Of a stretch of 64,000 nucleotides of DNA, positions 40,977 to 56,379 are shown piece after piece. The translations under genes and the position numbers were made by a program. Source of the DNA: an uncultured Bacteroidales bacterium (lineage in GTDB: Bacteria > Bacteroidota > Bacteroidia > Bacteroidales > UBA932); assembly GCA_947306365.1 (NCBI GenBank), contig CAMZGD010000006.1, positions 1 through 64,000 on the forward strand, in the 5' to 3' direction. Each line of letters starts with the position of its first letter. The stretch's first letter is position 1. The notes beneath the pieces were generated by a model that saw nothing but the letters and a program-made list of their open reading frames with translations, had not been told where the DNA came from and ran no database searches.

Positions 40977-40977
40977 C

Positions 40978-42231
40978 TTACTTGAGTCTTGACTCAATTT
41001 CTTTCCCGACCCGTGTGATAATACCGCAAACAAGCGCATTGCCCATTAGAAACGCCCTCTTGCCATCATCCACCCCCTCAAGCTTTGTGTGGTCGGAAGG
41101 AAACATATTTAAGCGCTCCAACTCCACAGGGACCAATCGGCGCAATCGACCGGTCTGATCCCGGATGACGTGCCTACAACGGTCCGGGCTCTTGCCTCCT
41201 TCTGAAGTGATGATTGTCCGGGATGGTCTATCAATAGGGTCGGGGAACTCCATCCCGCCTTCAGTATAGTAATACTGGAAACCATCTTTCCTTGTGCGCA
41301 ACTCACGCTTACTCCCTTTGTAGTACTGCCACCTTTCAATTTGCCCGGCGGGAATGTAGAACTCCTCGGGAACCTGATCAGGAGTCACCATGATATCTTG
41401 GATGGTAGTAGGCTTGTCCGAGCAGGAAGGAAATGTAGTGAAAGAAACAGCTTCTCCATCCCGCATTACGCCACTTCCATAGAAAGGATAGGTTACCATC
41501 GACTTGCCGAAATTTTCGGTTATGTCAAGCAGTCTGTCCTTCTTCTTAGCAGAAAGCTTTATTGTTGTCGGAATCGGAATAACCCCTTTCTCCGAATCAA
41601 CGGGGAAAGCCTTCGCAAAAATGCCTGATTGATAAATCCAATCTTTAGGGTCTTTGAAGGCTTGAGCTATTGTTCCATCTTTCTTATACGCCAGGATATA
41701 GGTCCTACGCCTCTTTTGTGGCATCGCATAGTCAGCAGCATTGATAACCCGCCATTCAACCATATATCCCAGTTCGTTCAAGCACTCCAGAATAATGGCG
41801 AAATCACGTCCCCTCTGACTAGCAGGAGAAAGCAGGAGTCGATCGACGTTCTCAAGAAACACAACTTCGGGCCGTTTGTCTCCTTTCTCTTTCAGTATCC
41901 GATAAATGGACCACCACAGAACACCTTTCTTCCCTTCGATTCCTTTAGAATTGCTTAGCGTCGTTGCGACAGAGTAATCTTGGCAAGGAAAGCCCCCAAC
42001 GAGAATATCATGGTCAGGTATATCCTCGGTTTTTACCGTGTTAATATCCTGATTGACAATGCTTCCTTTGCCATAATTCTTCTCATAGACTAGCGCGGCA
42101 TGTTGTATCTTGGTTGACGGTTCCCACTGGTTTGCCCAAATCGTATCAAAGAATGCCGCATCGGCCCTTTCAAGGCCAACTCGGAATCCACCGACACCTG
42201 CGAACAACTCAACAACGCGAACTTTCTCCAT
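40978..42231 (-). CDS. C5-cytosine DNA methyltransferase
   Basis: 417 aa from ATG 42231; a TTG at 42252 overlaps the -7 box and is rejected. Motif I VELFAGVGGFRVGLE (residues 7-21), motif IV GGFPCQDYSVA with the catalytic Cys83, motif VI FLENVDRLL (126-134), motif VIII QKRRRTYI (172-179), and a late motif X-like GNALVCGIITRVGKEI. The target-recognition region lies between about 185 and 340. It should protect sites cut by the Sau3AI-like enzyme; if the family rule holds the target is GATC with the C methylated. Confidence 0.95.
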   Translation of the reverse strand: MEKVRVVELFAGVGGFRVGLERADAAFFDTIWANQWEPSTKIQHAALVYEKNYGKGSIVNQDINTVKTEDIPDHDILVGGFPCQDYSVATTLSNSKGIEGKKGVLWWSIYRILKEKGDKRPEVVFLENVDRLLLSPASQRGRDFAIILECLNELGYMVEWRVINAADYAMPQKRRRTYILAYKKDGTIAQAFKDPKDWIYQSGIFAKAFPVDSEKGVIPIPTTIKLSAKKKDRLLDITENFGKSMVTYPFYGSGVMRDGEAVSFTTFPSCSDKPTTIQDIMVTPDQVPEEFYIPAGQIERWQYYKGSKRELRTRKDGFQYYYTEGGMEFPDPIDRPSRTIITSEGGKSPDRCRHVIRDQTGRLRRLVPVELERLNMFPSDHTKLEGVDDGKRAFLMGNALVCGIITRVGKEIESRLK

Positions 42232-42249
42232 AATTCGGATTTGTGGAGA

Positions 42250-42257
42250 CAAATGTA
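42250..42257 (-). promoter_or_regulatory. -7 box of the methyltransferase gene
   Basis: TACATTTG on the minus strand, 19 nt before the ATG at 42231. The remaining 220 bp up to 42479 are AT-rich (about 38% GC) with no convincing gene; the open frame on the plus strand there has no homology that I recognise. Confidence 0.65.
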
Positions 42258-42479
42258 CTCAGTTTTTTCTTTCGATCCAAATATTTTAGCTACGTTTCCT
42301 ATCGTTCTACTATTGAACGTATTACTTTATTTTAATAATCACGAATTATTAAGAAGCAAGCCAGGATTCAATACTATATGTTTAATCACATTGCTGGAAT
42401 CATTGCGAACCAAAGCGTCAAGCGTCAGCAATGAAGAATTTATAAAGGCAAGACCGAGAGACATTTCGGGCCTCAGAAA

Positions 42480-43724
42480 TTAAGAGAACTCCCTTTCAAG
42501 CCATTCTTTTAAAGCCTTGACAGTGCGAATTTCAAACTGTTCAAAGATAAGATTGATAATTGTTCGCCCCGTAACGAGCACTATGGGGTGACCATCATCA
42601 AGGAGCTCTTGGTAGGCTTGCTGGTGGACATAAGATGTTGTCACCATAATTCCGAACTGCCTATCTTTAATCCGAGATATAAGGCGTGCTGTGTCTTTGA
42701 CACCAACGGCGGTACTAAATGGATTGAAACACTTTGCCTGAAGGTAAAAATCAACAAGAACACTTTGGGTTCCTGTCCCAAATACCCGATAAGTACCAAT
42801 GCCGTCTATCCCTCCGTCTTTAAAGGGACGAGTTACATCTACAGTAACAACGTTTTCATCTAGCTGTTCAACAACGAAACGAGCAAACTGTTCAAAGCTA
42901 TAGCCCCTATCTTTCTCGATGAAATAATCATGTAAAGTCTGGAGCATAGCAACCTTCTCCGTATCTCTGGAATCAGGTAGTTGTTCGTCCTTACTCTTAA
43001 CATAGGTCTCCCTAAAAGCCGTCAGTGACAAGAATTTCTTGCGGTCAATGTATTTCTTCCACTCGGAGGGGACATATTTACTGTCATATGCTTTACCGGC
43101 TTCTATATCGGTTAACCACGCGAGGCTAATTCCAGATTCATCTTTCTCAGCCTCGCAACCCTTTGCAGTATCAAGAATTGTAAAAAACGACTTGTAGTTG
43201 AGGAAACGATTTCCATTTCTGTCAGACCCCCAAACCGCGGTAAGCCAATCTTTCTGGGGTTTTCCTTGTATTCCGGGCACTGCTAATCCCAAGAATTTGA
43301 TATCGCGTCCATGGACTTTTTTGAAGACGAAAATAGGTGGCACCTTTTTACGTATGTCCGGATTATCGGAGCATGCATAATCGAATACGTGCTTCAAAAT
43401 GAGATTTCCCTTCAACTTCGTATTATGAAGATCTTTTCCTGGGGTCTTCTGGTCTCCATAGTAAAGAAAGATTCCTAAAGAAGAATCAAGATCATCTCTC
43501 CAATACATATCCTCACCACTAGTGAAGAGGGCGACTAACTGAGGACTCTCCGTTTTTCCTTTATAACGGAAACCACCTTGATTACCTACGCTAAGTAATT
43601 TGGACAGCACTTCTCCGCCAAGATTTTTGGCGTTTGGATTTGCTTTATAGATGGCATCGACATATAAATGCCAGTTAGGCCGCTGTTCGGCCGTAACCTT
43701 CTCAAAAACGTTAATCTCTTGCAT
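42480..43724 (-). CDS. Mrr-fold restriction endonuclease with AspBHI-like N-terminal domain
   Basis: 414 aa from ATG 43724; the earlier GTG start would overlap the -7 box at 43743-43750. The N-terminal half has GGFRYKGKTESPQLVALFTS, then YYGDQKTPGKDLHNTKLKGN, which I recognise from the DNA-recognition domain of the modification-dependent enzyme AspBHI. The C-terminal part is an Mrr catalytic domain: YSFEQFARFVVEQL, FKDGGIDGIGTY with the metal Asp, and the Q-x-K site in YLQAKCF, then IMVTTSYVHQQAYQEL. It probably cuts DNA carrying 5-methylcytosine in a given context. It is upstream of, and parallel to, a C5 methylase gene. Confidence 0.83.
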   Translation of the reverse strand: MQEINVFEKVTAEQRPNWHLYVDAIYKANPNAKNLGGEVLSKLLSVGNQGGFRYKGKTESPQLVALFTSGEDMYWRDDLDSSLGIFLYYGDQKTPGKDLHNTKLKGNLILKHVFDYACSDNPDIRKKVPPIFVFKKVHGRDIKFLGLAVPGIQGKPQKDWLTAVWGSDRNGNRFLNYKSFFTILDTAKGCEAEKDESGISLAWLTDIEAGKAYDSKYVPSEWKKYIDRKKFLSLTAFRETYVKSKDEQLPDSRDTEKVAMLQTLHDYFIEKDRGYSFEQFARFVVEQLDENVVTVDVTRPFKDGGIDGIGTYRVFGTGTQSVLVDFYLQAKCFNPFSTAVGVKDTARLISRIKDRQFGIMVTTSYVHQQAYQELLDDGHPIVLVTGRTIINLIFEQFEIRTVKALKEWLEREFS

Positions 43725-44086
43725 TTTGGGAATTGCGTGTCCCAAATATAGCACATTTTATCCAGGCGACCTGAGATAATCAAATAAAAGCAACGCTTCC
43801 CATGGGTGAGATGGGAATTACATAACGTTATTGCAAAGGTTATCTAACGACAATAGCATTCGTAAATAGTAAATAAAAAACCCTAATAAGCGGTTATTCG
43901 GCAGTTATAGCGGTAATCACGTATATCACCTTCATAACGTAATCTTCGCATAACCATAAAAAGTCAGAAGACCAATCCTAACCACTCCACTTCCCTCCGC
44001 CATCCAGGGACGCCAGAATGCGAGCAGGAAGAACAAAGGTAAATTCGTATCTTTGCATAATCAATGGCTTAATAAACGAAGTTATT
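43725..44086. other. Intergenic region between two divergent nuclease genes
   Basis: 362 bp without a gene. It holds the minus-strand -7 box TATATTTG (43743-43750) for the Mrr-type nuclease and the plus-strand -7 box TATCTTTG (44048-44055) for the DUF262 gene. Between them is an AT-rich tract with a perfect palindrome ATAACGTTAT (43822-43831) and two later variants of its half (ATAACG near 43936, ATAACC near 43953), which may be operator sites. Confidence 0.5.
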
Positions 44087-45817
44087 ATGGGAAAGTTCCA
44101 GGATACAACCGTGAAGAAAATAATCGGACAGTTAAACGACAGTTTCTTCCTTCCTGATATTCAGCGCGAATATGTATGGCTGAACAAGGAACAAGACAAG
44201 AAGATCGAACTTCTCTTTGATTCGATTCTAAGGGATTATCCCATTGGAACCTTCCTTTTCTGGTCTCTTAAGAAGTCTGATTTTGAAACATCCAAAGAGA
44301 CAACGCCGGTTGCTGGTAAGTTAAACTTCCAGTTATACAAGTTCATCGAGCGTTATGACGTCAGGAAGAGTCATAACGAGAAGGTAAATATCGAGCAAGT
44401 CAAATCCGAAAACATTACGATAGTTCTTGATGGACAGCAGCGATTGACGTCTCTGTATATTGGGTTGATGGGATCTAGGACATTGAAGAAGCCTCGCCAT
44501 TGGTGGGACAATCCAGATGCTTTCGAAGAGAAGAAGCTATACTTGAACTTACGCCACATTCCTCAGCCGGACAATCCGGATGATAACTATCAGTTTGAGT
44601 TTAAGGTTCCTTCTGCATTACCAACCCCAGACGAAAACAATTATTGGTTCAGAGTTGGAGAAATTCTCGAACTTGACAGTGTTCTCGGATATAGCCGGAA
44701 GCACGGGCTTTCTGATGAAGAATCCATCATGTTGGAGAAGCTTCATAACAATCTTTGCAGCAAGGATATTATCTCGTTCTATAATGAGGACGAAAAGAAC
44801 CTTGACAAGGTTCTGAAGATCTTCATAAGGGTAAACAGTGGCGGAACTCAGCTTTCTTATTCTGACCTGTTAATGTCCATCCTAACGGCGAATTTCTCTT
44901 CGGATATTCGCACCTTGATGATAGAGTTGGTCGACAATCTTCAGACCTCCGGATTTGGTGTGATGGGACGCGACCAGATTCTTAAGACATGCTTACTCCT
45001 GACGGGTTGCAACCACGTGTTCAAACTTGAGAACTTCTCTAAAACGAACATTTCGAAAATTGAAACTAATTGGAGCAGAATTACGGAATGCATACTCGAT
45101 GCAGCGTCGATTGCAGAAGACTGCGGATATGCCAACAACCTATCATCCGGTTACATCCTGACCACTATAGCTCTCTATCTATATATCAAGAATCTTAGAG
45201 CTGGAAAGGTTTCCGTTGATGACCGAAGAGAGATATGGAAGTTTATCCGGAACGCTCAAATCACAGCATACTTCTCGGCGACCCTGGATTCTAAACTCGG
45301 TATTGCGGCTAATACTATGAGGGGCAATAAGGATCTCCCTCAGGTGAAAGATTTCGAAGAATTCAATGCCCGCATGGATAAGGACAGAAACATCTCAGTC
45401 CACAAAGAGAATGTGTTGGATATGTTGAACCTTCAATATGGGTCTTACGCTGTTTTACCGGTACTTCAGGTGCTGTATCCAACGCTGGATTATAAGAACA
45501 GATCCTTCCATATCGACCATATTTATCCGAAGTCAAAGTTTACCGTAAAGAACTCGAAACTGCCCGCAGACTATCTTTCCAAAAAGAATAACCTCTTTAA
45601 TCTTCAATTACTTGAAGGCGGCGAGAATATTGAAAAGCGGGCTAAAGACCCGGAGGTGTGGCTTTCGCAGAATTATGATACCGTCGATAAAATCAAGGCC
45701 TATAAGCGCGAGAACTACATAGACGAGAACTTCACACTCAATTGGGAGGATATTGCTCAGTTCGAAAAAGACAGGATAAAGAGCATAAAGAAAGCCCTAG
45801 AGAAATTGTTCGAATAG
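44087..45817 (+). CDS. DUF262-DUF1524 protein (GmrSD-like restriction nuclease)
   Basis: 576 aa from ATG 44087, 32 nt after a -7 box. The N-terminal DUF262 domain has FFLPDIQREYVW (20-31) and the nucleotide-handling motif VLDGQQRLTSLY (113-124). Later VRVNSGGTQLSYSDLLMS is typical. The C-terminal DUF1524 part carries an HNH-type nuclease motif, FHIDHIYPKSKF. GmrSD of phage defence is a two-part enzyme of these domains acting on modified (glucosylated hydroxymethyl) cytosine DNA; single-chain versions are common type IV-like systems. Convergent with a WYL regulator gene. Confidence 0.88.
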   Translation: MGKFQDTTVKKIIGQLNDSFFLPDIQREYVWLNKEQDKKIELLFDSILRDYPIGTFLFWSLKKSDFETSKETTPVAGKLNFQLYKFIERYDVRKSHNEKVNIEQVKSENITIVLDGQQRLTSLYIGLMGSRTLKKPRHWWDNPDAFEEKKLYLNLRHIPQPDNPDDNYQFEFKVPSALPTPDENNYWFRVGEILELDSVLGYSRKHGLSDEESIMLEKLHNNLCSKDIISFYNEDEKNLDKVLKIFIRVNSGGTQLSYSDLLMSILTANFSSDIRTLMIELVDNLQTSGFGVMGRDQILKTCLLLTGCNHVFKLENFSKTNISKIETNWSRITECILDAASIAEDCGYANNLSSGYILTTIALYLYIKNLRAGKVSVDDRREIWKFIRNAQITAYFSATLDSKLGIAANTMRGNKDLPQVKDFEEFNARMDKDRNISVHKENVLDMLNLQYGSYAVLPVLQVLYPTLDYKNRSFHIDHIYPKSKFTVKNSKLPADYLSKKNNLFNLQLLEGGENIEKRAKDPEVWLSQNYDTVDKIKAYKRENYIDENFTLNWEDIAQFEKDRIKSIKKALEKLFE

Positions 45818-45846: not shown

Positions 45847-46800
45847 TTATAATTCTGAATCTACCCGGATTTTGTCTTCATCGCCCAGGATGAAGCGGTT
45901 ATCTACGCGCTTCCGGACCTCATCGGAAACCCATTGGGGCGAGATAACTTTGGAGAATTGACAGAAGTTTACGAGTTCCCCGATGAAATCGCCAGTAGGC
46001 CTAATAGTATATTCGAAAACACAGTAGTCATCGCCGGTTTCAATCTCTTTCTGGGAATGGTGAAGCGGTAGAGAGCGAAGATAATCCCTCGTCATTCCCT
46101 CCACCCAAAGCCGCACCTGTTCAAGTTTCACCTTGGGATCTACGTAGATGCCATAGTAATCCCCGAAGAAGGCTTGAGCGTCGAAACCTTCGGATGTCTC
46201 GAACTTAATCTTGGTGAGTTCGCAACCGACGATTCTATCAAGGGCATATACCCTCAAATGGTCAAGATCCAGGCTGAGCCCAAGAACATACCAACGTTGT
46301 TGCCAAAGTTTTAGGCACCAGGGCTCGATTTTGAAGGTGTATATGTTGTCGCTTCTGAAATTCCTATAACTTATTTCCACGACCAGATTCTTGTTCATCG
46401 CATCAATTATGATGGTGAGATATTTCTCTCCGGACGGGATGTTTTCCAGAAGGATACGATGATTCAAAGACTTACTCTCCATCAGCATATTCCCAATGGA
46501 CATAGTATTTAGAATCCATCGCCGGAGGTTGCCCCTCTCGATGTCGTCGCTATTCTCGATGTAGTATTTGAATCCGTCATGCTTATCACACTCGATATCA
46601 ATGTCGAACAGCTCTTCAACAGCGTGTCTGTGATCGTGAAAGGTTCTGATGGGCAGGTCGCTTCCATCATTGTTCCAAGAAGAAGTACGCCACTTTCTGG
46701 CAATTTCTTCGAAAGTGATTTTACCGGCTGAATAAACAGTATTCGCCAACCAGATATAGCGATTGAACAGCTCGGACGCAGATGTTTTGGAAGTAGCCAT
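45847..46800 (-). CDS. WYL-domain transcriptional regulator
   Basis: 317 aa. N-terminal winged helix (about 8-75: FNRYIWLANTVYSAGKITFEEIARKW) and a WYL domain in the middle (VVEISYRNFRSDNIYTFKIEPWCLKLWQQRWYVLG spans residues near 140-175), then the C-terminal WCX extension. WYL regulators bind nucleic acid or nucleotides and often repress phage-defence operons (BrxR, CapW). It is divergent from the HIRAN gene with a palindrome in the shared promoter region, so autorepression is likely. Confidence 0.9.
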   Translation of the reverse strand: MATSKTSASELFNRYIWLANTVYSAGKITFEEIARKWRTSSWNNDGSDLPIRTFHDHRHAVEELFDIDIECDKHDGFKYYIENSDDIERGNLRRWILNTMSIGNMLMESKSLNHRILLENIPSGEKYLTIIIDAMNKNLVVEISYRNFRSDNIYTFKIEPWCLKLWQQRWYVLGLSLDLDHLRVYALDRIVGCELTKIKFETSEGFDAQAFFGDYYGIYVDPKVKLEQVRLWVEGMTRDYLRSLPLHHSQKEIETGDDYCVFEYTIRPTGDFIGELVNFCQFSKVISPQWVSDEVRKRVDNRFILGDEDKIRVDSEL

Positions 46801-46822
46801 AATGATTCTATGATTCTTCGCA

Positions 46823-46882
46823 CAAATTTATGCATTTCCTTTTAATTCTGCGGAGTTTTCGCAGAGTGTCCCGGTAACTTTG
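46823..46882. promoter_or_regulatory. WYL/HIRAN divergent promoters with inverted repeat
   Basis: Minus-strand -7 box TAAATTTG at 46823-46830 (WYL gene) and plus-strand -7 box TAACTTTG at 46875-46882 (HIRAN gene). Between them TTCTGCG (46845-46851) and CGCAGAG (46860-46866) form an inverted repeat over the -33 region of both, a likely operator for the WYL protein. Confidence 0.6.
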
Positions 46883-46909
46883 CATCAGAAACTTAAAACA
46901 ACAAGCATT

Positions 46910-47251
46910 ATGTTACAAGAAAAAAGACAAACCCTCTTCAACTGCAAACTTGCAGGTTTCACTTACTACGATGGTCCTCTGGCATGGCAGGACCTTCAGG
47001 TCGGCTCAAAGCTTACCCCTGTTGCAGAGGACAACAAGTACGACCCGAATGCAATCGCTCTTTTTTTCGGAGACAACAAGCTTGGCTTTGTGCCCAAAGA
47101 AAAGAACGAAACTCTCAGACACTTTATTGAGATGGGCTGGGAAGAAGCTATCGACATCCGCATCTCCCGCCTCTCAAGAGAGGAATATCCTGAACGCCAG
47201 GTAGACATCTCCGTCGGCATTGCGAGAAACGCGAACAAAAATCAAGAATAA
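46910..47251 (+). CDS. HIRAN-domain protein
   Basis: 113 aa from ATG 46910. The HIRAN domain covers almost all of it: FNCKLAGFTYYDGPLAWQDL, LTPVAEDNKYDPNAIALFFG and KLGFVPKEKNETLRHFI are the classical strands, with the conserved Asp-Pro-Asn-Ala-Ile. HIRAN domains recognise 3' DNA ends or stalled forks and are found in SNF2 helicases and in small stand-alone defence-linked proteins. It has its own promoter, divergent from the WYL gene. Confidence 0.9.
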   Translation: MLQEKRQTLFNCKLAGFTYYDGPLAWQDLQVGSKLTPVAEDNKYDPNAIALFFGDNKLGFVPKEKNETLRHFIEMGWEEAIDIRISRLSREEYPERQVDISVGIARNANKNQE

Positions 47252-47255
47252 ATCC

Positions 47256-47263
47256 TAACTTTG
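47256..47263 (+). promoter_or_regulatory. -7 box of the EVE-like gene
   Basis: TAACTTTG at 47256-47263, 26 nt before the ATG at 47290, directly after the HIRAN gene stop. Confidence 0.65.
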
Positions 47264-47289
47264 TAACAATCACATAAAAGACACGTAAT

Positions 47290-47805
47290 ATGGCAACTGT
47301 AATCTTCAAATGGAATCCTGGTTTCTCTTCATATGAGATGATGCGTTATCTCGAGGACCTCTGCAATGCCGCAGAAAACGATGAATTCGATTATAACTGG
47401 AGCGTCTGGGATTTTGATAAAATCAAAAAGGGAGACCGCTTCTACTGGGTAAAACTCGGATATGGTGCTAAAGGCATTGTCGGCTGCGGAGTTATTACAT
47501 CCGACCCTTATCAGGGTGCAGATTGGAGCGGTAACGGTCGCCCCACTTATTACGTTGACTTTATGCCGCGCATCATGATTAATCCCGATGCGCTTCCTAT
47601 CCTTGATATGCGCACGCTCGAGGCAGAAATCCCCGACTTCGAGTGGGCAAAGGGTCATTCCGGCCTTATCCTCACCGACGGGCAGGCCAAACATCTCGAC
47701 GAGATATGGAACACCTTCGTGACGAAGAATATGGATCTCTTCGTGGAGCGTGCGAATAATGACCACGCAATGAACGATAAGTTCTTCATTCAGGGAGACG
47801 AATAG
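47290..47805 (+). CDS. EVE/PUA-like domain protein, putative modified-base reader
   Basis: 171 aa. The middle has KKGDRFYWVKLGYGAKGIVGCGVI (in pieces: KKGDRFYWVKLG, then GIVGCGVITSDPY), which is the strand pattern of the EVE/PUA-like superfamily that binds modified bases and is often fused to McrB-type nucleases. The rest is acidic with FEWAKGHSGLIL near the end. A stand-alone reader beside type IV-like nucleases could report modified phage DNA. Superfamily assignment is by eye and moderately sure. Confidence 0.65.
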   Translation: MATVIFKWNPGFSSYEMMRYLEDLCNAAENDEFDYNWSVWDFDKIKKGDRFYWVKLGYGAKGIVGCGVITSDPYQGADWSGNGRPTYYVDFMPRIMINPDALPILDMRTLEAEIPDFEWAKGHSGLILTDGQAKHLDEIWNTFVTKNMDLFVERANNDHAMNDKFFIQGDE

Positions 47806-47831: not shown

Positions 47832-49034
47832 ATGGACAAAGTCCTTCCCCCGAAACAAGATCGTGTTTTTGGATGTATTGTAGGAGGAGCCGTCGGCGAC
47901 GCTCTGGGCTATCCCGTTGAGTTCAAAACTTGGCCTGCGATCGCCAACCGCTACGGCCAACGCGGCATCACTCGCTTCGAACTTGATGAGCGCGGCCTGG
48001 CGCAGATATCCGATGACACGCAGATGTCGCTATTCACCGCCGCCGGCGTATTGCTTGGAATGACGCGTGGTCGTATGCGGGGAGTGATGGGGCGCATCGA
48101 CGGTTATTGCCGGTTTACATATCTTGATTGGCTCCATACGCAAGAATGGAGCTCCAAAAAACAAGACACTCGTATTGATTCCTGGCTAATGGATGTCCCT
48201 GAACTCTATTCTAGACGTGCCCCAGGAGGGACCTGTCTATCTGCTCTGAAAGCAATAGAGAATGGTAAACAGGTCGACAATACCAGTTGCGGCTGTGGCG
48301 GCGTAATGCGCACGGCACCCATTGCACTTATTTCGTATATTCACGGATACTCTCGATTCGATAGCACCAAGGATGATACGCTATTTGTTGATGACGTAGC
48401 TGCAAGTGCTGCCTGTATCACGCATAAGCATCCACTTGGTTTCATTCCTTCCGCTGTGCTCAATCATTTACTTATGTCAATTCAGAGCCGGGATGCCCAC
48501 ACTAGAGATGATTTCGTTGCAATAGTTCAAGACGCTATAGAAGTTTTGCCACATACTCTTTGTCAAGACGATGACGACAAGCCGTATGGAGAGCTATGGC
48601 CAAAGCACGTGGCAATAATGCGAAAGCTGATTCGCCAAGCACTTGATCTTTCATGCTCTGATACTCCCGACCAAAAAGCCATCGCATCAATCGGAGAGGG
48701 TTGGACGGGCCATGAAGCGCTGGCCATCGCCGTCTATTGCGCCGTCAAACACGCTGAAAGCTTCGAAGATGCCGTAATCTCAGCAGTTAACCACTCCGGG
48801 GACAGTGACTCCACAGGGGCAATATGCGGCAACATCATCGGTTGCTTACTCGGACGTACTGCGATTCCGGCACATTACACGGAACGGCTGGAACTGTTGG
48901 ATGTCATAGAAGAGATGGCCCAAGACCTCTACACCGGATGCATCATCAGCGAATACGACCTGTTCGATACCCCAGAGAAGCGCCTTTGGTATAAGAAGTA
49001 TTGTCTTCACGAGTGGTCACCTAAAAGAAGATAG
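47832..49034 (+). CDS. ADP-ribosylglycohydrolase (DraG family)
   Basis: 400 aa. Removes ADP-ribose from proteins or nucleic acids using two Mg ions. Metal ligands are seen in GDALG (22-26), ISDDTQMSLFT (59-69) and the late GDSDSTGAICGNIIG; CGGVMRTAPI is the usual middle motif. It follows the EVE-like gene by 26 nt without a promoter of its own, so the two are co-transcribed. In this context it may reverse ADP-ribosylation by a toxin or phage enzyme; no ADP-ribosyltransferase gene is found in the window. Confidence 0.93.
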   Translation: MDKVLPPKQDRVFGCIVGGAVGDALGYPVEFKTWPAIANRYGQRGITRFELDERGLAQISDDTQMSLFTAAGVLLGMTRGRMRGVMGRIDGYCRFTYLDWLHTQEWSSKKQDTRIDSWLMDVPELYSRRAPGGTCLSALKAIENGKQVDNTSCGCGGVMRTAPIALISYIHGYSRFDSTKDDTLFVDDVAASAACITHKHPLGFIPSAVLNHLLMSIQSRDAHTRDDFVAIVQDAIEVLPHTLCQDDDDKPYGELWPKHVAIMRKLIRQALDLSCSDTPDQKAIASIGEGWTGHEALAIAVYCAVKHAESFEDAVISAVNHSGDSDSTGAICGNIIGCLLGRTAIPAHYTERLELLDVIEEMAQDLYTGCIISEYDLFDTPEKRLWYKKYCLHEWSPKRR

Positions 49035-49513: not shown

Positions 49514-50689
49514 CTAGTGTGCCTTGTAGTTGTACACCGGCTTGATGATCCTTTCCACCTCCACAGTAGGTCCAATCTGTGCCAGGATGGACTCCATCGG
49601 CTTGTAGGCACCGGGAGCTTCGTCTTTGGTGGAGTCGCAGACCGACCAGGAGGCGATGCCGTCCATGTCGTTCTGGAAGTCTTCCATCTGAATTCGCTTG
49701 AAGGCATCGGCGCGGGACATCAGTCGGCCGGCACCGTGCGGGGCGGAATAGTTCCAGTCGGGGTTGCCCTTGCCGATGCAGATCAGGGAGCCGTCTCTCA
49801 TATTCATCGGGATGAGGACCCGCTCCCCTGCCCTTGCGGAGATGGCTCCTTTGCGGAGAATCATGTTCTCGATGTCGATGTAGTTGTGGATGGTCTGCCA
49901 CACGACCTTCGGCTTGAGCCCCATTCCTTCGGTGATGACGCGGATCATCGCCTTGCGGTTCAGTTCGGCGAACCGCTGGCAGAGCCCCATATCGTGGATA
50001 TAGTCCTCGAACGACTTGCCATCGAGATAGGCCAGCGGATCTTTCGGCCCGGGCTTGCTACCCAGTTTTTTCAGCTCCGTCTGGATATCCCGTGCACGGC
50101 CTTCGGCTTTCAGCCGGGCAATCAGTTCCGCCACTACGCCCTGGCCCGAGTAGTAGCGTTCCTTCTCGGCCAGGTGCTGATAGTATTCGCAGACCTTCTT
50201 CCCAAGGTTGCGGGAGCCGGAGTGGACCACGAGGTACATATTGCCATCTTCATCTTCGTCAAGTTCTATAAAGTGGTTGCCGCCGCCCAAGGTGCCCACG
50301 GAGAGGGCGTTGTACTCACGCTTTCCGTGCGGACTGCGCAGCGCATCCACCAGGGCGAGGCCTTCGGCGGTCTCTTCGATGGCATTTTCACGGACGTTCA
50401 TCCCGGAAGGGATGTCCTTCTCGATCAGGTGCTCCAGCTTCTGCGGATCAACGAACACCTTGCCCAGCTCAGCCACAATCATTCCGCATCCGATGTCCAC
50501 GCCCACCAGATTCGGCGTCACCTTGTCCGTCAGCGTCATCGTCGTGCCGATCGTACAGCCCGCACCCGCGTGCGCATCCGGCATGATGCGGACCTTCGCG
50601 TCCTTGTAGGCCTCAAACTCCGCCAGCGACTGGATCTGCTTCAGCGCTTCGCCTTCAATCCCTTCACAATATATTTTCAAATCTGCCAT
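49514..50689 (-). CDS. rtcB: RNA-splicing ligase RtcB
   Basis: 391 aa, shorter than archaeal RtcB (about 480) and close to the bacterial RtcB2-like subgroup. Joins 2',3'-cyclic phosphate or 3'-phosphate RNA ends to 5'-OH ends using GTP and Mn. Manganese and guanylate sites are seen in DAHAGAGCTIGTTM, VGVDIGCGMIVAEL with the metal Cys, GGGNHFIEL, VVHSGSRNLGKKV and SAPHGAGRLMSR with the guanylated His. It follows rlaP by 4 nt, so the two are an RNA-repair operon under the promoter at 51510-51541. Confidence 0.96.
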   Translation of the reverse strand: MADLKIYCEGIEGEALKQIQSLAEFEAYKDAKVRIMPDAHAGAGCTIGTTMTLTDKVTPNLVGVDIGCGMIVAELGKVFVDPQKLEHLIEKDIPSGMNVRENAIEETAEGLALVDALRSPHGKREYNALSVGTLGGGNHFIELDEDEDGNMYLVVHSGSRNLGKKVCEYYQHLAEKERYYSGQGVVAELIARLKAEGRARDIQTELKKLGSKPGPKDPLAYLDGKSFEDYIHDMGLCQRFAELNRKAMIRVITEGMGLKPKVVWQTIHNYIDIENMILRKGAISARAGERVLIPMNMRDGSLICIGKGNPDWNYSAPHGAGRLMSRADAFKRIQMEDFQNDMDGIASWSVCDSTKDEAPGAYKPMESILAQIGPTVEVERIIKPVYNYKAH

Positions 50690-50693
50690 TATT

Positions 50694-51473
50694 TCAATTG
50701 TTTGTTTTTTCTATCTCCCTAAGGAAGAAATTGTCTAATCTATTAAAGTCTGCGAACTTGTCTGCCGGGAAACTTCCCAGTTGTGCCGCAATCTTATCCG
50801 CGGTCTCGGATGCGTACGCAATAAGCCTATCATTTACAATACTCTTATCGTGTTCCTTGCTCTGACTTTTGAGTCGGACCAATTCTCTCAACTCTCTTTG
50901 GATAGAGTCATCACTCACCTCTGCCTCAACGAGTTCCATGAATGGAACCGGCGGATATGTTCCCTTATCCATCGCCCACTTCGCCGCTAACAAACCACGG
51001 ATATGATACATAAATCGTTTGAGTTCGCATCCTCGCTTTTCCAAGTACCGTTTATCATGGTTCATTGCCATATGGTAGTAGTGATTGACGGCAGAAACCT
51101 TGCGAAAGTACAGTTCTTTGAGCACGACTATTTCCCGGAAGAAGTTCTCTTCTTTGTAGTATATGATCGGTGACCCCAGCCACTCAACAAATGAACAGTT
51201 GCATCGTCCCATCAAAGTGAGTGCCTTCTTAAGATCCCATCCCGATACATCAAGGATGCCCTCTGGATCAAGTTCTTCAATGACGTCCCGGCCTTCTAGT
51301 AAAGACAAGTACCAATCCCTTTTATGAACATAAATAAACCTCACATCATAATCGCTATCCGGAGAAGCAAAACCCCAAGCCCTGCTGCCCGATTCAACGG
51401 CCAGCAGAACACGGACCTCATATCTTTTCTCGATGTCCATAAGCTTCTGCAATATTTCTTCTTCTATCTTCAT
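50694..51473 (-). CDS. RNA repair nucleotidyltransferase RlaP
   Basis: 259 aa from ATG 51473. DNA polymerase beta-type nucleotidyltransferase with ESGSRAWGFASPDSDYDVRF (residues 28-46), where Gly-Ser and Asp-x-Asp form the active site; this sequence is characteristic of the RlaP (RNA-ligase-associated) family, Pfam PF10127. The C-terminal part is helical. Found commonly beside rtcB. It is presumed to treat RNA ends before or after ligation; the exact reaction is not settled. First gene of the rlaP-rtcB operon. Confidence 0.88.
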   Translation of the reverse strand: MKIEEEILQKLMDIEKRYEVRVLLAVESGSRAWGFASPDSDYDVRFIYVHKRDWYLSLLEGRDVIEELDPEGILDVSGWDLKKALTLMGRCNCSFVEWLGSPIIYYKEENFFREIVVLKELYFRKVSAVNHYYHMAMNHDKRYLEKRGCELKRFMYHIRGLLAAKWAMDKGTYPPVPFMELVEAEVSDDSIQRELRELVRLKSQSKEHDKSIVNDRLIAYASETADKIAAQLGSFPADKFADFNRLDNFFLREIEKTNN

Positions 51474-51509: not shown

Positions 51510-51594
51510 CAAAGATAAACGGCCGTTATTTTGCTCCCAAATCTCTGCAAGCCTTGCAGGGATTTGTATACGGATTATCCTCTCTGTACTTTTG
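51510..51594. promoter_or_regulatory. Divergent promoters sharing a 27-bp palindrome (copy 1)
   Basis: Palindrome at 51539-51565: half AAATCTCTGCAAG, central C, half CTTGCAGGGATTT (one mismatch). Its ends contain the -33 boxes of both promoters: minus TTTG at 51538-51541 with -7 TATCTTTG at 51510-51517 (rlaP-rtcB), and plus TTTG at 51563-51566 with -7 TACTTTTG at 51587-51594 (84-aa gene). Both spacers are 20 bp. A protein bound here would control both directions. Confidence 0.75.
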
Positions 51595-51599
51595 CACTC

Positions 51600-51815
51600 G
51601 GTTAGTGCATTTCCCAAGGTAGGGACACTTATAACCCCACGTGTATCACTTGTTGACTGCCAACTGAAAAGACCCCTGCCATCGATACCGTGGCTATACG
51701 ATGAGGAAGCGGCTCGATGTCCGGAGTCGTTCAGGACGTCAAGGGGAAGGCAGAATGTTGCATCAACCCGCCGGAACTGTTGGCATACTCATCGTTTGAT
51801 AAACAATAACGATAG
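51600..51815 (+). other. Long 5' leader of the 84-aa gene
   Basis: About 215 nt between the predicted transcript start and ATG 51816, without a convincing gene. One short open frame of 32 codons (ATG 51700 to TGA about 51798, product starting MRKRLDV) is possible. The leader has a hairpin-prone stretch (CCATCGATACCGTGG). It could be a regulatory leader or a separate small RNA. Confidence 0.4.
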
Positions 51816-52070
51816 ATGGAACTTACAAAGACACAGCAGGCGCTGTTGGCTATATTATGCAGCCAGGGCGTGCAAGAAGATTCAATAATCGCAATAATGC
51901 TTCTTCTCCAAAAGAGCGAGGACGCGATGATAGATCTTGGATTGTGGATCGGTCAGGAGAATCCGACGGAGCCGGAGATACTGAACAAGGCGGTGGAGAT
52001 ACACAACAACCTGCCGGTGGAGTTGCAGACGACAACGACAAGCCAGGTGGAGGAGGCGGAGGAGGAGTAG
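51816..52070 (+). CDS. Small helical protein, 84 aa
   Basis: The first 65 residues read like a compact helical protein: MELTKTQQALLAILCSQGVQ, then DSIIAIMLLLQKSEDAMIDL and GLWIGQENPTEPEILNKAVE; the tail is Thr- and Glu-rich. The sequence is similar in style to small Bacteroidales proteins of unknown function. An overlapping open frame (51857-52126) is Gly- and Arg-rich low-complexity sequence and is taken as a shadow. Its promoter is shared with rlaP-rtcB through the palindrome. Confidence 0.6.
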   Translation: MELTKTQQALLAILCSQGVQEDSIIAIMLLLQKSEDAMIDLGLWIGQENPTEPEILNKAVEIHNNLPVELQTTTTSQVEEAEEE

Positions 52071-52165
52071 CAATCTTCCGCAAAGTAACCGAGCCAAAGA
52101 AGATTGAGAAACGGAAAAACGGCTAGAAGTCAGGATATAGTAGTGTCTGGGCTAGCCGGAACAAC

Positions 52166-52360
52166 AAAAAAAGAGTTACTGGATGGACTAAGTGGGCAAG
52201 CCGTGGCAAGCCCCCGCATTTCCAATAACTCTAAAACGGCAGCATAATTGCTTAAAAGTATTCATCTTTCGTCTTTCGACGGCCGCCTTTAATCTGCGAG
52301 ACTGCGCTTTCAAAAATTCGATAGAAAAGTGCATCGACAGTGTTCTCTCATTTTCTTTTT
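52166..52360 (-). ncRNA. Candidate structured RNA, ~195 nt, under palindrome copy 2
   Basis: Transcript from the minus promoter (-7 at 52367-52374) to a terminator formed by AGAGTTATTGG (52232-52222) and CCAGTAACTCT (52182-52172) followed by seven T. The 39-nt apical region contains GGGC/GCCC pairing and two direct copies of GGCTTGCC. Either a regulatory RNA or the mRNA of a 48-aa peptide (starting MHFSIEFLKAQSRRLK). Confidence 0.4.
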
Positions 52361-52395
52361 CGCACGCAAAGATACTGTTCATCCCCTATTGTCTA

Positions 52396-52422
52396 CAATT
52401 CCTGCAAGGCTTGCAGGCATTA
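52396..52422 (-). promoter_or_regulatory. 27-bp palindrome, copy 2
   Basis: Halves CAATTCCTGCAAG and CTTGCAGGCATTA around a central G. On the minus strand it is followed by ATTG as -33 box, 21 bp, and -7 TATCTTTG at 52367-52374, the same layout as copies 1 and 4. No plus-strand promoter is seen on its other side. Confidence 0.65.
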
Positions 52423-52462
52423 CGTCATGACGCGCAGAATGCCGGGAAAGAGATAACTCACA

Positions 52463-53497
52463 TTAAAAGTAAGTATTCACAGCGAAAGCGAATTGATCGA
52501 TAAAAATCTTCTTGAAGGCAGAAATATTGTTCTGCTCGTAGAAGATGAGCATTGCTTTCTTGTAATCGACAGAATCGACTGTACGGAAGGAAATCGGGCA
52601 ATACTTGTATGCGATGAGTATCGCATTGCTGGTAATGCGGGCTGTTCGCTTGTTACCGTCAGTGAAGGCCTGTATATAGGAGAGCAGGACCAGCGTCAGC
52701 AGTGCTTTCTCAAAAACATTCTTTCTGCCATTGACAAGTCGACAAGTATCTTCCAAAGCTTCCAGAATCTGGTGCTCGTTGTCAAGAGGGCGATAGTTCG
52801 TGCCGGTGATGCCGACACGGCGCTGGCGGATTCCTGCGTCAACGCCTAAATCCTTGACCAGGATACTATGAAGCTCTTCGATGCGACGGACAGAAATCTC
52901 TTCCAAATACGCTGGCATATCCAGAATGAAGTCCAGCGCATCTTTATGATTGAGGAGCATCACCGCTTCTTCCCTGGTCTTACCGGAAGCAGTTTGTTTT
53001 TCCTTCAGGAGTTTCTCCGTCTCCAACAGCGAATAGGTGTTTCCTTCTATTTGGGAAGACTTCCAACTGAGGTCAATTCCAAGGCGCTCCATCTCTTTAC
53101 GGTACTCCGTTGGCGTAATACCCACCAGATTATGGGTGAACTGGGCCTGCAGGCCGTTTAAGCGTTCTTTCTCCTCTACTGTAAATAATTCCACTTTGGG
53201 AAGAATGTCGTTGATAAGCTCGAAGTTGAACGATGTCTGCACTTCTCGTTCATCCGTCTCCTTTTGGTAGTAAGTATCAATATCCAACTCCATCGTCACC
53301 TGTGCCTGCGGTGAAACGCTGTACCGCGTTGCCCGGCCCCGGCCCTCCACAACAGCCGATCCGGAATCCACCAAAGAGGCAAGTATTCTCTTGACGGTAG
53401 CGGGACTTTCTGTAAGGTTCATTCCCGCTTCAATCTCACTTCTGGAAGAGCCGGGGTGGTAGTGAAGATACTGGAGTATTTCGTTTTCTCTGGTCAT
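52463..53497 (-). CDS. HTH-Fic family protein with Gln in place of the catalytic His
   Basis: 344 aa. Residues 1-60 form a winged HTH (SSRSEIEAGMNLTESPATVKRILASL). A Fic domain follows. The class II inhibitory motif SSQIEGN is at 147-153. The Fic core reads QAFTDGNKRTAR at 276-287, so the first residue of the usual HxFxxGNxRxxR is Gln276 (codon CAG at 52670-52672). Without the His base, AMPylation should be weak or absent, or the protein uses another chemistry. Half-sites around its promoter suggest autoregulation through the HTH. Confidence 0.85.
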   Translation of the reverse strand: MTRENEILQYLHYHPGSSRSEIEAGMNLTESPATVKRILASLVDSGSAVVEGRGRATRYSVSPQAQVTMELDIDTYYQKETDEREVQTSFNFELINDILPKVELFTVEEKERLNGLQAQFTHNLVGITPTEYRKEMERLGIDLSWKSSQIEGNTYSLLETEKLLKEKQTASGKTREEAVMLLNHKDALDFILDMPAYLEEISVRRIEELHSILVKDLGVDAGIRQRRVGITGTNYRPLDNEHQILEALEDTCRLVNGRKNVFEKALLTLVLLSYIQAFTDGNKRTARITSNAILIAYKYCPISFRTVDSVDYKKAMLIFYEQNNISAFKKIFIDQFAFAVNTYF

Positions 53498-53511
53498 ATC
53501 ATTATCGTTTT

Positions 53512-53591
53512 CGGCTCAAATTTACGAAATAAACGGCTCATTCCGCAAAGATTTGAGCCGTAAACAAGAAAATAAACCGAATTTTGAGCCG
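53512..53591. promoter_or_regulatory. fic promoter with four CGGCTCA half-sites
   Basis: -7 box TAAATTTG on the minus strand at 53517-53524, 20 nt before the ATG. Four half-sites surround it: CGGCTCAAAT (53512), CGGCTCATT (53534), TTTGAGCCG (53552) and TTTTGAGCCG (53582), two in each orientation. One overlaps the -7 box. Confidence 0.7.
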
Positions 53592-53603
53592 ATTGGCCGA
53601 TTG

Positions 53604-53630
53604 TTCTCTTCGCAAGTCTTGCAGAAATTA
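53604..53630. promoter_or_regulatory. 27-bp palindrome, degenerate copy 3
   Basis: Halves with CGCAAG and CTTGCAG around T53617; outer parts are weaker. It overlaps the stop codon of the 324-aa gene and no promoter boxes stand at the expected distance, so it may be inactive or chance. Confidence 0.35.
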
Positions 53631-54602
53631 GAACTGAATCTCCCAAGACACCAATTCCCGGGGCAGGGTGATATTCATCGTTTCACCCTTCTTTCCCGTG
53701 ATGTAGTATTGCTGGGCCAATGCGCTGTCAAACTCTCGTTCAAAGGCACTCTTCAGTCGAGAACGATGCTCGTTGATTGCGTTGGAATCCAATTCGAACA
53801 ACCGGTCTACTGACGCACCGATTCTTTCAAGATCACTTTGGTTCGTCAAGTGCCCATAGATATGGTATATCTCTGACCGGTAGTCGATCAAGTCCTTGAA
53901 TGCAATTCCTTCAGGATGCCGCAGATAAAAGAAGAAAAGTGTTTTCTCCATCGGCCGCATCTTTATCATACGGTTATATTCCGGAAGGAACACATTACAA
54001 TTCTTCTTGATTACAACACGGCTGAGCACATCTTCATCAACCAACGCCTTCTCAATCGCTTCTCGAACAACGCCCTTGGGCTTCTTCTCCATCAAGGTGA
54101 AAAAGAGATTGATAATATCCGGATCGGAGCTCTGCTCTGAATAGAGCGCATGGCTGATTTTATCTCCATACCTACGGGCAATGTGCTGGAACTGCTCCAT
54201 GTACAGTTCGGGTCTGCTGACGTCGATCTTGATCAGAACCTTCTCATCTTGTTCTCGGATCACAACTTCTGCATCCGTAGAGTGACCGTGGACTACGCTT
54301 TCAATTTCTTCGCTCTGAATAGCCCTAAGTTTGAGAATCTTCTCGTAGTCGACTTCTTTGAGCCAGGGCATACGGTAGAGAATCTTCCCCTCCAATTCCA
54401 TCACATCGTCGAACATAGCCGGCATATAGCAAAACTCCAGCTTGCGATGGCGAAAGATGTGCTTGAGCGCAGGGAGGTTACTTTTGACAAAGTCGTTCAA
54501 CTCATGGCACGAACCGTTATCGATGAAGACAACTTGGCTTATTTCTACTTCGAACGGTAATTCTGCGTAGATCATTTCATACTGGTTGAATACTTGCAGC
54601 AT
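53628..54602 (-). CDS. Uncharacterised Bacteroidales protein, 324 aa
   Basis: Not recognised. No signal peptide or membrane segment. The N-terminal 110 residues are mixed alpha/beta; a helical middle and a C-terminal part with MRPMEKTLFFFYLRHPEGI and FKDLIDYRSEIYHIYGHL, a pattern I know from conserved hypothetical proteins of Bacteroides without a function. It lies 58 nt downstream of the 118-aa gene and so is probably transcribed from the palindrome copy 4 promoter. Confidence 0.75.
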   Translation of the reverse strand: MLQVFNQYEMIYAELPFEVEISQVVFIDNGSCHELNDFVKSNLPALKHIFRHRKLEFCYMPAMFDDVMELEGKILYRMPWLKEVDYEKILKLRAIQSEEIESVVHGHSTDAEVVIREQDEKVLIKIDVSRPELYMEQFQHIARRYGDKISHALYSEQSSDPDIINLFFTLMEKKPKGVVREAIEKALVDEDVLSRVVIKKNCNVFLPEYNRMIKMRPMEKTLFFFYLRHPEGIAFKDLIDYRSEIYHIYGHLTNQSDLERIGASVDRLFELDSNAINEHRSRLKSAFEREFDSALAQQYYITGKKGETMNITLPRELVSWEIQF

Positions 54603-54660
54603 AGGAACCTCCTTGATTTCAGATTGCTAAGTTAAGCATTTCCCATTGAGGAGACAAGAA

Positions 54661-55017
54661 TTACAACCCTTTGCGTAGAGCATTATATCCCACAGTAATG
54701 TCGAAATAGAGTTGAACATCGTGTATCGTTCCGTCTTCTTCCGTCATATGATACAACAACACATCTACATAATGATCATTCTTTTCCAGTAGGGACTGCA
54801 TCATGAATTTATATTGCTTGGGATGCAGCAGGAACTGAGCCACCAGATACTCCATCCGTACATACTCCTCGGCAAAATTGATAACGATGGGATCATCCAG
54901 ACTCCGCCCCCTCGTGCTTGTTTTCTCATTCTCCGGCCACATTCCGTTCTTGTACAGAATATATAGCATCATTTTCATATGCTTGGGCAGCTTGTTAAAA
55001 GAATCTTTTCCATTCAT
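54661..55017 (-). CDS. Uncharacterised helical protein, 118 aa
   Basis: Not recognised. Starts MNGKDSFNKLPKHMKMMLYI; charged, helical, with YVRMEYLVAQFLLHPKQYKF and a C-terminal beta-like end (TIHDVQLYFDITVGYNALRKGL, in part). No membrane segment. Transcribed from the minus-strand promoter at 55037-55067 that shares palindrome copy 4 with the AAA+ ATPase gene. Probably in an operon with the 324-aa protein. Confidence 0.75.
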   Translation of the reverse strand: MNGKDSFNKLPKHMKMMLYILYKNGMWPENEKTSTRGRSLDDPIVINFAEEYVRMEYLVAQFLLHPKQYKFMMQSLLEKNDHYVDVLLYHMTEEDGTIHDVQLYFDITVGYNALRKGL

Positions 55018-55036
55018 TTCATTGTCGATTTTGTCG

Positions 55037-55121
55037 CAAAGCTATCCACTTAGTATCCCTCCTGAAAATCCCTGCAAGCCTTGCCAAGATTTCCTGCAAT
55101 CATAGCACTATCCTACCTTTG
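55037..55121. promoter_or_regulatory. Divergent promoters sharing the 27-bp palindrome (copy 4)
   Basis: Palindrome at 55066-55092: halves AAATCCCTGCAAG and CTTGCCAAGATTT around C. Minus promoter: TTTC at 55064-55067 as -33, 19 bp, -7 TAGCTTTG at 55037-55044 (118-aa gene). Plus promoter: TTTC at 55090-55093, 20 bp, -7 TACCTTTG at 55114-55121 (AAA+ gene, ATG 55147). Same architecture as copy 1. Confidence 0.72.
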
Positions 55122-55146: not shown

Positions 55147-56379
55147 ATGGGTTTCACCATTCAAGATATCAAGAGCGTCACGGACAAACATTATGAGCAA
55201 TTCGTCGATAAAGAGATCGACGCTTCTGCAGCCGCCTCTGCCATAACGGAGATTGCTTCCTGGGAAAGCGAGCTTCCGTTCGTACTTGGGTTGAAGAAAC
55301 TAGGCGTAGACAAGTATTCCGTGTCCGAAAACCTATGTCTCTTAATGCTTATCGACGATATTTTCTGGGATGGGCTGGAACCGCTGCAGTACACCAGGTT
55401 CTCAAAACACCCAGAATACGGAGTAATACTCAAAGGAATCGACGGCCTATTAAAGAGAGGCGTTTTACGGTATGATGTTGCTCATACGAACGCTCCTGAA
55501 AAAAACGCGAACAGGATCGACCGGTTCTATATCACACCAAAAGCGCTTAGGCTGCTCTTCTTTGGGCATCGAGGACTAGTGTCCTTGGGGGACATCGCAA
55601 GGCAGGCGGAAATCATTCCCTCAAGTACGATTCAACAAAAACAACTCTATTTCGACGAGAATAATAAGGAAGATATTAAACGATCGTTTCACCTTCTTAA
55701 ACCAGATGTCTACAATTCGGTTATGGACAGATTGTCCAATCGTGGGCGGAAAGCGGCTGCGACATTCCTATTCTATGGAACACCCGGCACAGGAAAAACC
55801 GAACTGGTGAAACAGCTGGCCAGAGAAACAGGACGAGACATCATAATGGCTGACGTTTCCAAACTACACAGTTCCTTTACCGGCGATACTGAGAAGAACT
55901 ACCGTGAAATGTTCAATGCATATAGGTATTTATATTGCCTGTCTCCCGTTGCCCCTATTCTTCTGTTCAATGAGGCGGATGCGATCTTAAGCAAACGAGG
56001 AGATGTGCTGAGACAGGCCATCGACAAGATTGCAAACCGAGTCCAGAACATCCTGCTCCAGGAGTTAGAAGATTTTGAAGGAATCTTGATAGCGACGACA
56101 AACCTGGCGGAGAACCTCGATCCAGCCTTCGAGCGCCGGTTCCTGTATAAAGTCAAATTCGAACAGCCCGGGGCCAATGTCAGGGAAAAAATATGGATGT
56201 CCCTGATTCCCGAACTCTCGAAAATGGAAGCAGCCATACTTTCCGACACCTATCCCTTCTCCGGCGGCCAGATCGCAAACGTTGCAATGAAGCGCGACCT
56301 CGACGAAATCCTTTTCGGCGACACTCCGTCCTTTGCGCAGATGAGAAGCTATTGTGACAAGGAACTGCTCAAAGCTTAA
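55147..56379 (+). CDS. AAA+ ATPase with Asn in Walker B
   Basis: 410 aa from ATG 55147. The N-terminal 195 residues are helical with no known domain. The AAA+ domain has Walker A GTPGTGKT (211-218), pore-like SSFTGDTEKNYREMF, Walker B ILLFNEADAIL (271-281) with Asn275 in place of the first Asp, sensor 1 IATTNL, and the arginine finger FERRF. Such FNEAD ATPases are common in Bacteroidota. Last gene of the island; shares a palindromic operator with the RNA-repair genes. Confidence 0.88.
   Translation: MGFTIQDIKSVTDKHYEQFVDKEIDASAAASAITEIASWESELPFVLGLKKLGVDKYSVSENLCLLMLIDDIFWDGLEPLQYTRFSKHPEYGVILKGIDGLLKRGVLRYDVAHTNAPEKNANRIDRFYITPKALRLLFFGHRGLVSLGDIARQAEIIPSSTIQQKQLYFDENNKEDIKRSFHLLKPDVYNSVMDRLSNRGRKAAATFLFYGTPGTGKTELVKQLARETGRDIIMADVSKLHSSFTGDTEKNYREMFNAYRYLYCLSPVAPILLFNEADAILSKRGDVLRQAIDKIANRVQNILLQELEDFEGILIATTNLAENLDPAFERRFLYKVKFEQPGANVREKIWMSLIPELSKMEAAILSDTYPFSGGQIANVAMKRDLDEILFGDTPSFAQMRSYCDKELLKA

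Follow-up and report, generated by a model that had tools for sequence, protein, structure and literature searches.

The stretch of DNA analysed here, hereafter the window, spans the full 64,000 nucleotides (nt) from position 1 to 64,000 of contig CAMZGD010000006.1, from an uncultured Bacteroidales bacterium (GTDB lineage UBA932). It carries an RNA-repair block in which a 27-base-pair (bp) palindrome recurs beside the promoters of an rlaP-rtcB pair, a candidate RNA with an 84-amino-acid (aa) gene behind it, a small leftward unit, the p118-p324 gene pair and an AAA+ ATPase gene (Table 1). A sequence-only reading of the window had proposed that the palindrome joins these units into one regulon. 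The part of the site that we scored was its 15-bp core, CTGCAAG-N-CTTGCAG. Loci and genomes fetched for comparison are denoted by L and G numbers, respectively.

Table 1. Features of the RNA-repair block, in window coordinates
Feature	Position	Strand	Basis or remark
RtcB RNA ligase gene	49514..50689	-	PF01139, E 1.6e-62
RlaP nucleotidyltransferase gene	50694..51473	-	PF10127, E 7.5e-71
-7 box TATCTTTG, rlaP-rtcB promoter	51510..51517	-	signature match 51510-51558, minus
Palindrome copy 1	51539..51565		exact core at 51545-51559; common to two divergent promoters; TAnnTTTG at +35 on both sides
-7 box TACTTTTG, rightward RNA/84-aa promoter	51587..51594	+	signature match 51546-51594, plus
Candidate transcribed RNA ahead of 84-aa gene	51600..51812	+	5' motif around GTGCAT; 72% over 202 aligned positions with L062
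84-aa gene	51816..52070	+	no family found; no homologue in other fetched loci
Small open frame (64 aa)	52188..52382	-	similar to a portion of small L062 and L065 proteins (blastn, motif matches)
-7 box TATCTTTG, leftward small unit	52367..52374	-	signature match 52367-52415, minus
Palindrome copy 2	52396..52422		exact core at 52402-52416; box on minus side only
Weak palindrome copy 3	53604..53630		core 53610-53624, two mismatches; not supported as control site
324-aa gene (p324), predicted regulator	53628..54602	-	residues 193-321 predicted OmpR/PhoB winged-helix fold (model, VIA-align, alignment)
118-aa gene (p118)	54661..55017	-	no family match reaching cut-off; L088 and L101 have homologues next to the palindrome
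-7 box TAGCTTTG, p118-p324 promoter	55037..55044	-	minus-strand two-mismatch site at 55086
Palindrome copy 4	55066..55092		core 55072-55086, two mismatches; common to two divergent promoters; box at +35 on both sides
-7 box TACCTTTG, AAA+ gene promoter	55114..55121	+	signature match 55073-55121, plus
AAA+ ATPase gene, IetA-like	55147..56379	+	PF00004, E 1.4e-24; PADLOC IetA, E 2.9e-33

A rare palindrome at a fixed distance from promoters

Palindrome copies 1, 2 and 4 were located as proposed and the core was confirmed. At up to three mismatches the core matched eight places in the window, compared with 2.59 (standard deviation 1.60, largest 6) in 100 shuffles, whilst the exact core occurred in the whole 2.14-Mb genome only as copies 1 and 2. 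Allowing up to two mismatches returned 16 places genome-wide against 15 for a backwards control, and the looser matches elsewhere in the genome therefore look like background. With two exact copies, both within the block, the palindrome is not a common chromosomal repeat, and it is also present at a related locus (L088).

Bacteroidetes promoters are of a -33/-7 form with TAnnTTTG as consensus. Consistent with the arrangement first described, copies 1 and 4 lie between two divergent promoters and copy 2 before a third. Copies 1 and 4 are flanked by TAnnTTTG on each side and copy 2 on its left alone, and every one of these boxes starts 35 bp from the centre of its palindrome. The weak third copy, which had been counted with the set, lacks TAnnTTTG on either side and was for this reason left out of the site count. 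Core and box together define a signature (TGCAAGNCTTGC, 28-30 bases, TANNTTTG; box approximately 35 bp from the centre) with four matches in the window's genome, all in the block (rlaP-rtcB, RNA/84-aa unit, leftward unit and AAA+ gene); the p118-p324 promoter is served by a two-mismatch site, making five promoters with a site in the window.

The same spacing holds in relatives, tying the palindrome to promoters. None of the outcomes that the sequence-only reading had named as refuting it (a common repeat, no relation to promoters, absence from orthologous loci) thus occurred. Of 48 palindromes lying no further than 6.5 kb from a winged-helix gene (at most one mismatch, with the two weak copies of the window added), 31 had TAnnTTTG beside them, and with box starts permitted from 22 to 45 bp off the centre, all 38 boxes started at 34, 35 or 36 bp. 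Control rates in the same loci were 1.8% at random positions and 2.6% at shifted positions. Palindromes in fetched loci that were not near a winged-helix gene had a box in 9 of 29 cases, with 11 of the 13 boxes at 34-36. When the 24 sites with a single box, at 35, were aligned, ATT at +10 to +12 proved strongly conserved on the promoter side and AA more weakly on the far side. The outer palindrome arm thus probably does double duty, belonging to the operator and acting as the -33 element.

Requiring up to three core mismatches and a box at 34-36 gave 76 matches (74 distinct) in the fetched loci (1.3 Mb) and none in the reversed sequences. Within the family, 27 of 299 genomes had the signature, whilst the backwards pattern had no match; in an order-level sample it was found in 7 of 393 genomes, namely two of this family and five with single matches elsewhere. 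In essence, then, the signature belongs to one family.

A winged-helix gene family accompanies the site

The C-terminal domain of the p324 product is modelled with N-terminal strands, three helices and a C-terminal hairpin wing, as expected of the OmpR/PhoB winged-helix class, a fold common to BaeR, GlnR, CadC, ToxR and PhoB. As p324 had no match in Pfam, NCBIfam or PADLOC, it is described as lacking a recognized receiver domain; the model is poor over the N-terminal half, to which no fold was therefore assigned. A search of the 299 family genomes, the lineage-wide check called for by the regulon proposal, placed 29 of 54 exact palindromes less than 5 kb from a winged-helix-domain gene (0.06 expected). 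On the strength of fold and co-localization we propose p324 as the binder: it is likely the reader of the palindrome, and the reader is likely a DNA-binding switch family absent from the protein libraries searched. The sequence-only reading had noted that RtcR and sigma-54 were not seen. No RtcR gene was found by Pfam among the block's larger genes, the rest of the genome not having been searched for RtcR or sigma-54. The binding protein is likely encoded inside the block itself, as the 324-aa product.

Searching genome contigs with p324 yielded two loci, L088 and the distant L089, whilst a single scan of viral contigs yielded no relative. A plasmid search with the winged-helix domain returned two distant relatives, from Prevotella and Segatella, and neither fetched plasmid stretch had a promoter-type site; on the Prevotella plasmid (NZ_CP091789.1, 43111-59551; L197) the domain lies in an unannotated stretch near ADP-ribosylglycohydrolase genes. 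Three winged-helix loci (L076 at 8874, L081 at 10410 and L121 at 2772) carried variants of the palindrome that keep its centre and its spacing to the box, which suggests co-evolution of protein and site. The domain was also paired with DUF1810 in many metagenomic proteins (P0026-P0080 except P0039), and two scanned DUF1810-type proteins had an A1S_2505-type N-terminal domain as well; such pairings are a possible ligand-sensing version.

RNA-repair and other genes behind the site

Across the 44 fetched loci with a site, a winged-helix gene neighboured the site in 33 and a vWA gene in 18, counts to be read with L060 and L176 being the same place and with the set partly chosen by the winged-helix domain, the unbiased figure being the 29 of 54 palindromes given above. 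Downstream features were taken at 62 distinct signature sites, including the five single matches outside the family, with the transcription start set five bases past the box. A downstream gene could be assigned at part of these sites; of the 62, vWA genes came first at 12 and AAA+ genes at two, and the winged-helix gene itself and PARG were also represented.

A TROVE/Ro60 protein stood behind the site in three loci (L091, L103 and L169), all over the cut-off; that of L103 matched PF05731 (E 2.2e-27) plus vWA_Ro60, and the domain was likewise above the cut-off in G314 (the genome of L091) and G356 and absent from the window's own genome. The leader of L169 contained two matches to the YrlA Y RNA family (40.6 and 35.6 bits, E 2e-6 and 5.7e-5), which we call YrlA-like only, because they score well below the RF02553 gathering threshold of 69 bits. 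In L091 (G314), one site precedes a run of TROVE, tRNA-Met, RlaP and RtcB, and the next site precedes tRNA-Arg and tRNA-Glu. G314 thus has rtcB and a tRNA array each behind a site of one and the same operator type, an arrangement that was not seen in the window's genome. RtcB also lay beside a site in L125 (6946-8747), where the gene after it encodes 201 aa and looks like a PrfH candidate, and in L123 (6974-8173). At L078, RtcB and a Cas12a gene flank a one-mismatch site that has a box on either side. The Cas12a gene of this locus (G086:C11, 10709-18892) has a CRISPR-like repeat array at 16035-16463, and a second two-sided site precedes an ankyrin-repeat protein, the two site regions being 86% alike over 101 nt.

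A census of 54 genomes (27 with the signature and 27 chosen controls) found RlaP in two genomes, both times behind the palindrome, and TROVE in four, three of them behind the palindrome. RtcB was found in 10, and as a genome-level marker of the regulon it failed, occurring in 5 of 27 signature genomes and 5 of 27 chosen controls. Given these equal counts, and with 4 of 11 RtcB loci lying by a palindrome, RtcB is occasional cargo, not core. The proposal that the five promoter units of the block form one regulon is supported by the common signature and its recurrence in other genomes. Its scope, however, needed correction, being wider than RNA repair: winged-helix and vWA genes are the commonest neighbours and RtcB an occasional one.

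tRNA arrays behind the site

At six sites (L088, L091, L095, L103, L169 and L170) a tRNA gene starts 6-42 nt past the start site, against approximately 0.03 estimated by chance from 43-56 tRNAs per genome. The runs comprise twelve tRNAs in L169, six in L095, four in L103 and two each in L091 and L170, with a single tRNA-Asn in L088, and a further run of eight in L101 follows an exact palindrome without a strict box. Arg(acg) leads every run (L091, L095, L101, L103, L169 and L170) but not L088.

Chromosomal tRNAs for comparison came from 19 tRNA-bearing stretches of G330, with Phe, His and Cys outside those sampled. They included second copies of three of its six array species, Arg(acg), Asn(gtt) and Trp(cca). 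Between arrays of different genomes in two genera, identity was 68-95% for Arg(acg), 95-97% for Asn(gtt) (71-75% for the L088 copy), 76-88% for Trp(cca), 89-95% for Glu(ttc), 83% for Lys(ttt) and 73-97% for His(gtg). Array tRNAs were 51-74% identical to G330 chromosomal tRNAs of the same anticodon, the set lacking chromosomal His and the Lys and Glu comparisons crossing genomes; within G330 the values were 55% (Arg), 63% (Asn) and 69% (Trp). Array tRNAs of the two genera are therefore mostly closer to each other than to the sampled G330 copies of the same anticodon. Their anticodon loops are the same as the sampled chromosomal ones or differ by one or two bases, whilst the bodies diverge more. 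Such a pattern would be expected if the arrays formed a reserve maintained separately from the housekeeping tRNAs; that array tRNAs resist nucleases is conjecture. A tRNA-like match (RF00005, 40.5 bits) that ARAGORN did not call lies at 798-861 of L060, approximately 100 nt behind a site, and at about 15288 of L104 a similar stretch seems to precede the matching gene.

Candidate transcripts and surrounding genes

The L062 relative of the RNA ahead of the 84-aa gene also sits behind a palindrome, and the motif around GTGCAT recurs behind the palindrome at 51-52 nt in L062, L101 and L104 and at 69 nt in L103. The window stretch folds no better than shuffles (z 0.04) and its L062 relative folds worse (z 1.69), so we claim a conserved transcribed stretch, with two long relatives in all, and not a structure. 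Rfam returned no match up to E 1 over 45-57 kb of the window. The candidate RNA of the sequence-only reading, in the unit left of copy 2, may be a short gene, as the small open frame there resembles part of the small L062 and L065 proteins; downstream of the frame, a long hairpin is followed by a T run (fold z -1.44, with 15 of 200 shuffles folding as well).

Between the weak third copy and a Fic gene (52463-53497), window positions 53512-53594 hold four CGGCTCA/TGAGCCG arms, probably the Fic gene's own operator and distinct from the palindrome; a winged-helix match below threshold lies at the N-terminus of the Fic protein. Just left of the block is a restriction cluster (35527-45817) with MutH-like, C-5 methylase, AspBHI/Mrr-type and GmrSD-type genes. 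The window further has an ADP-ribosylglycohydrolase gene (47832-49034) and a set of WYL, small HIRAN and 171-aa proteins (45847-47805), which recurs near a winged-helix gene in another genus (L103, 4411-6502).

Comparison with known systems

The premise that known RtcB operons are controlled by RtcR with sigma-54 is not general, since the rtcB of Anabaena is reported to be under TrcR (PMC10272220). TrcR is described as a ribbon-helix-helix repressor that silences a 26-tRNA operon and rtcB and controls its own gene; an AAA ATPase and a protein of the TIGR02452 family are listed among its targets, and its site at the trn operon, TGTAGTAT, overlaps the -10 box (PMC10272220). The Bacteroidales module resembles this account in placing a tRNA operon and rtcB under what would be a single regulator, with an AAA ATPase among the targets. 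It differs in that p324 is not of the ribbon-helix-helix type but has a predicted OmpR-type winged helix with a variable N-terminus, in its 15-27-bp palindromic site, and in having TROVE, YrlA-like RNA and RlaP among the targets. It is also patchy, whereas TrcR and its sites are reported to be highly conserved in cyanobacteria (PMC10272220).

Salmonella RtcR, according to the published account, is a sigma-54 activator with a CARF sensor that switches on rsr-yrlBA-rtcBA upon tRNA fragments (PMC7790460). The window likewise has an RtcB ligase in the controlled operon, with no RtcR among the Pfam-scanned larger genes of the block, and the likeness would extend to RtcB, Ro60 and Y RNAs under a single damage-responsive control. 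In contrast, the Bacteroidales promoters are of the -33/-7 form, and the genes found behind the same site include true tRNA genes. With OmpR/PhoB regulators p324 shares the predicted C-terminal fold, but not a recognized receiver domain. Phage-encoded tRNAs are reported to evade tRNA-targeting defences (PMC10264068, PMC11555353), and the arrays are similar in being extra tRNAs that would replace cleaved ones; they differ in residing in bacterial genomes behind a common promoter signature.

The best reading by analogy is an RNA- or tRNA-damage regulon comparable to those of RtcR and TrcR, run by another regulator family. Because the target list is strikingly similar whilst regulator fold, operator and promoter class differ, this looks like convergence on one logic. 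Judged by titles and abstract openings, searches of open-licence papers turned up no described Bacteroidales case of such control.

A proposed RNA-damage regulon and its alternatives

We regard it as reasonably probable that the palindrome is an operator, that p324 and its relatives are its reader, and that the genes behind it form an RNA/tRNA-damage regulon, whatever the sign of control; this assessment and those of the alternatives overlap and do not add up to a whole. Under this proposal, p324 and its relatives would bind the palindrome through the predicted OmpR-type winged helix, the outer ATTTG would double as the -33 element, and a dimer on the site would thus lie over the -33 region of one of the divergent promoters or of both. 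Binding by p324 would keep the five promoters silent until RNA damage is sensed, and p324 would control its own operon, p118-p324, through the same site. The inducer would be an RNA or tRNA damage product sensed by the variable N-terminal part, a signal suggested by the nature of the targets. From what is directly established, namely the site, its spacing, its confinement to the block in this genome, the winged-helix link and the downstream cargo in relatives, we infer p324 binding, the inducer and the sign of control. More tentatively, the module may constitute a dedicated tRNA-damage response, in which a new family of one-component OmpR-type switches with interchangeable sensors would share one operator and govern RNA ligation and end repair by RtcB-RlaP, Ro60 with YrlA-like RNAs, and stand-by arrays of divergent tRNAs, whose altered bodies would spare them from nucleases that destroy the housekeeping set.

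Repression is preferred, by a slight margin, because the promoters have the look of complete ones that need no help and because TrcR, the analogue, represses; activation is nearly as likely. OmpR-type domains are mostly activators, which speaks for the same regulator and site working the other way, with a dimer abutting the -33 region and recruiting RNA polymerase when damage is sensed. The box distance, constant to about 1 bp, is in keeping with such contact, and RtcR, the known regulator of rtcBA, is reported to activate (PMC7790460). Constant spacing is, however, also expected if the -33 box is merely part of the palindrome, and the promoters carry -33-like and -7 elements, the ATT at +10 to +12 being better conserved towards the promoter than its mirror image is on the far side, as if they fired unless blocked; the nearest analogue, TrcR, is moreover reported as a repressor (PMC10272220). 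Taken as a complete account, activation by p324 and its relatives is possible, if rather unlikely. That the palindrome is part of a mobile or phage-derived module, with tRNAs and RNA-repair genes for its own use, and not of a host stress regulon, appears doubtful. The module is indeed patchy (27 of 299 genomes) with shuffled cargo, its array tRNAs in two genera are mostly closer to each other than to G330 chromosomal copies, and the window block comes after a row of restriction genes. Yet the one viral-contig scan gave no p324 relative, those genes that were scanned on the right flank of the block (cation transporter, urocanase) are of ordinary chromosomal kinds, and no phage structural protein appeared among the few proteins scanned.

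It is improbable that another local regulator, such as the WYL protein (45847-46800) or the winged-helix Fic protein, binds the palindrome. The company of WYL, HIRAN and 171-aa genes with a winged-helix gene in L103 and the sub-threshold match of the Fic protein to a winged-helix repressor family would fit this, but within 6 kb of the site WYL and Fic each occurred in only 2 of the 44 loci, against 33 for winged-helix genes, and both were set aside as regulators on that count; the Fic gene, moreover, has inverted repeats of its own. A repeat arisen by chance or with a structural role, for instance as a terminator or DNA-uptake motif, is the least credible reading of all. In relatives, many of the exact copies do lie inside open frames, as background would, but the constant promoter spacing, the zero counts in backwards and reversed controls and the association with one gene family contradict it.

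With the regulon led by p324 and its relatives as the preferred reading, candidates for the regulator, operator and promoter geometry of Bacteroidales RNA repair are now named. RNA ligation, Ro60/Y RNA and extra tRNA arrays, which have been studied apart, become linked, and the arrays offer a testable answer to why bacteria keep extra tRNA sets. The exact signature allows the regulon to be listed in any genome of the family and can point to new RNA-damage or defence genes. Ultimately, if the proposal is true, these bacteria would possess a joint answer to damaged RNA.

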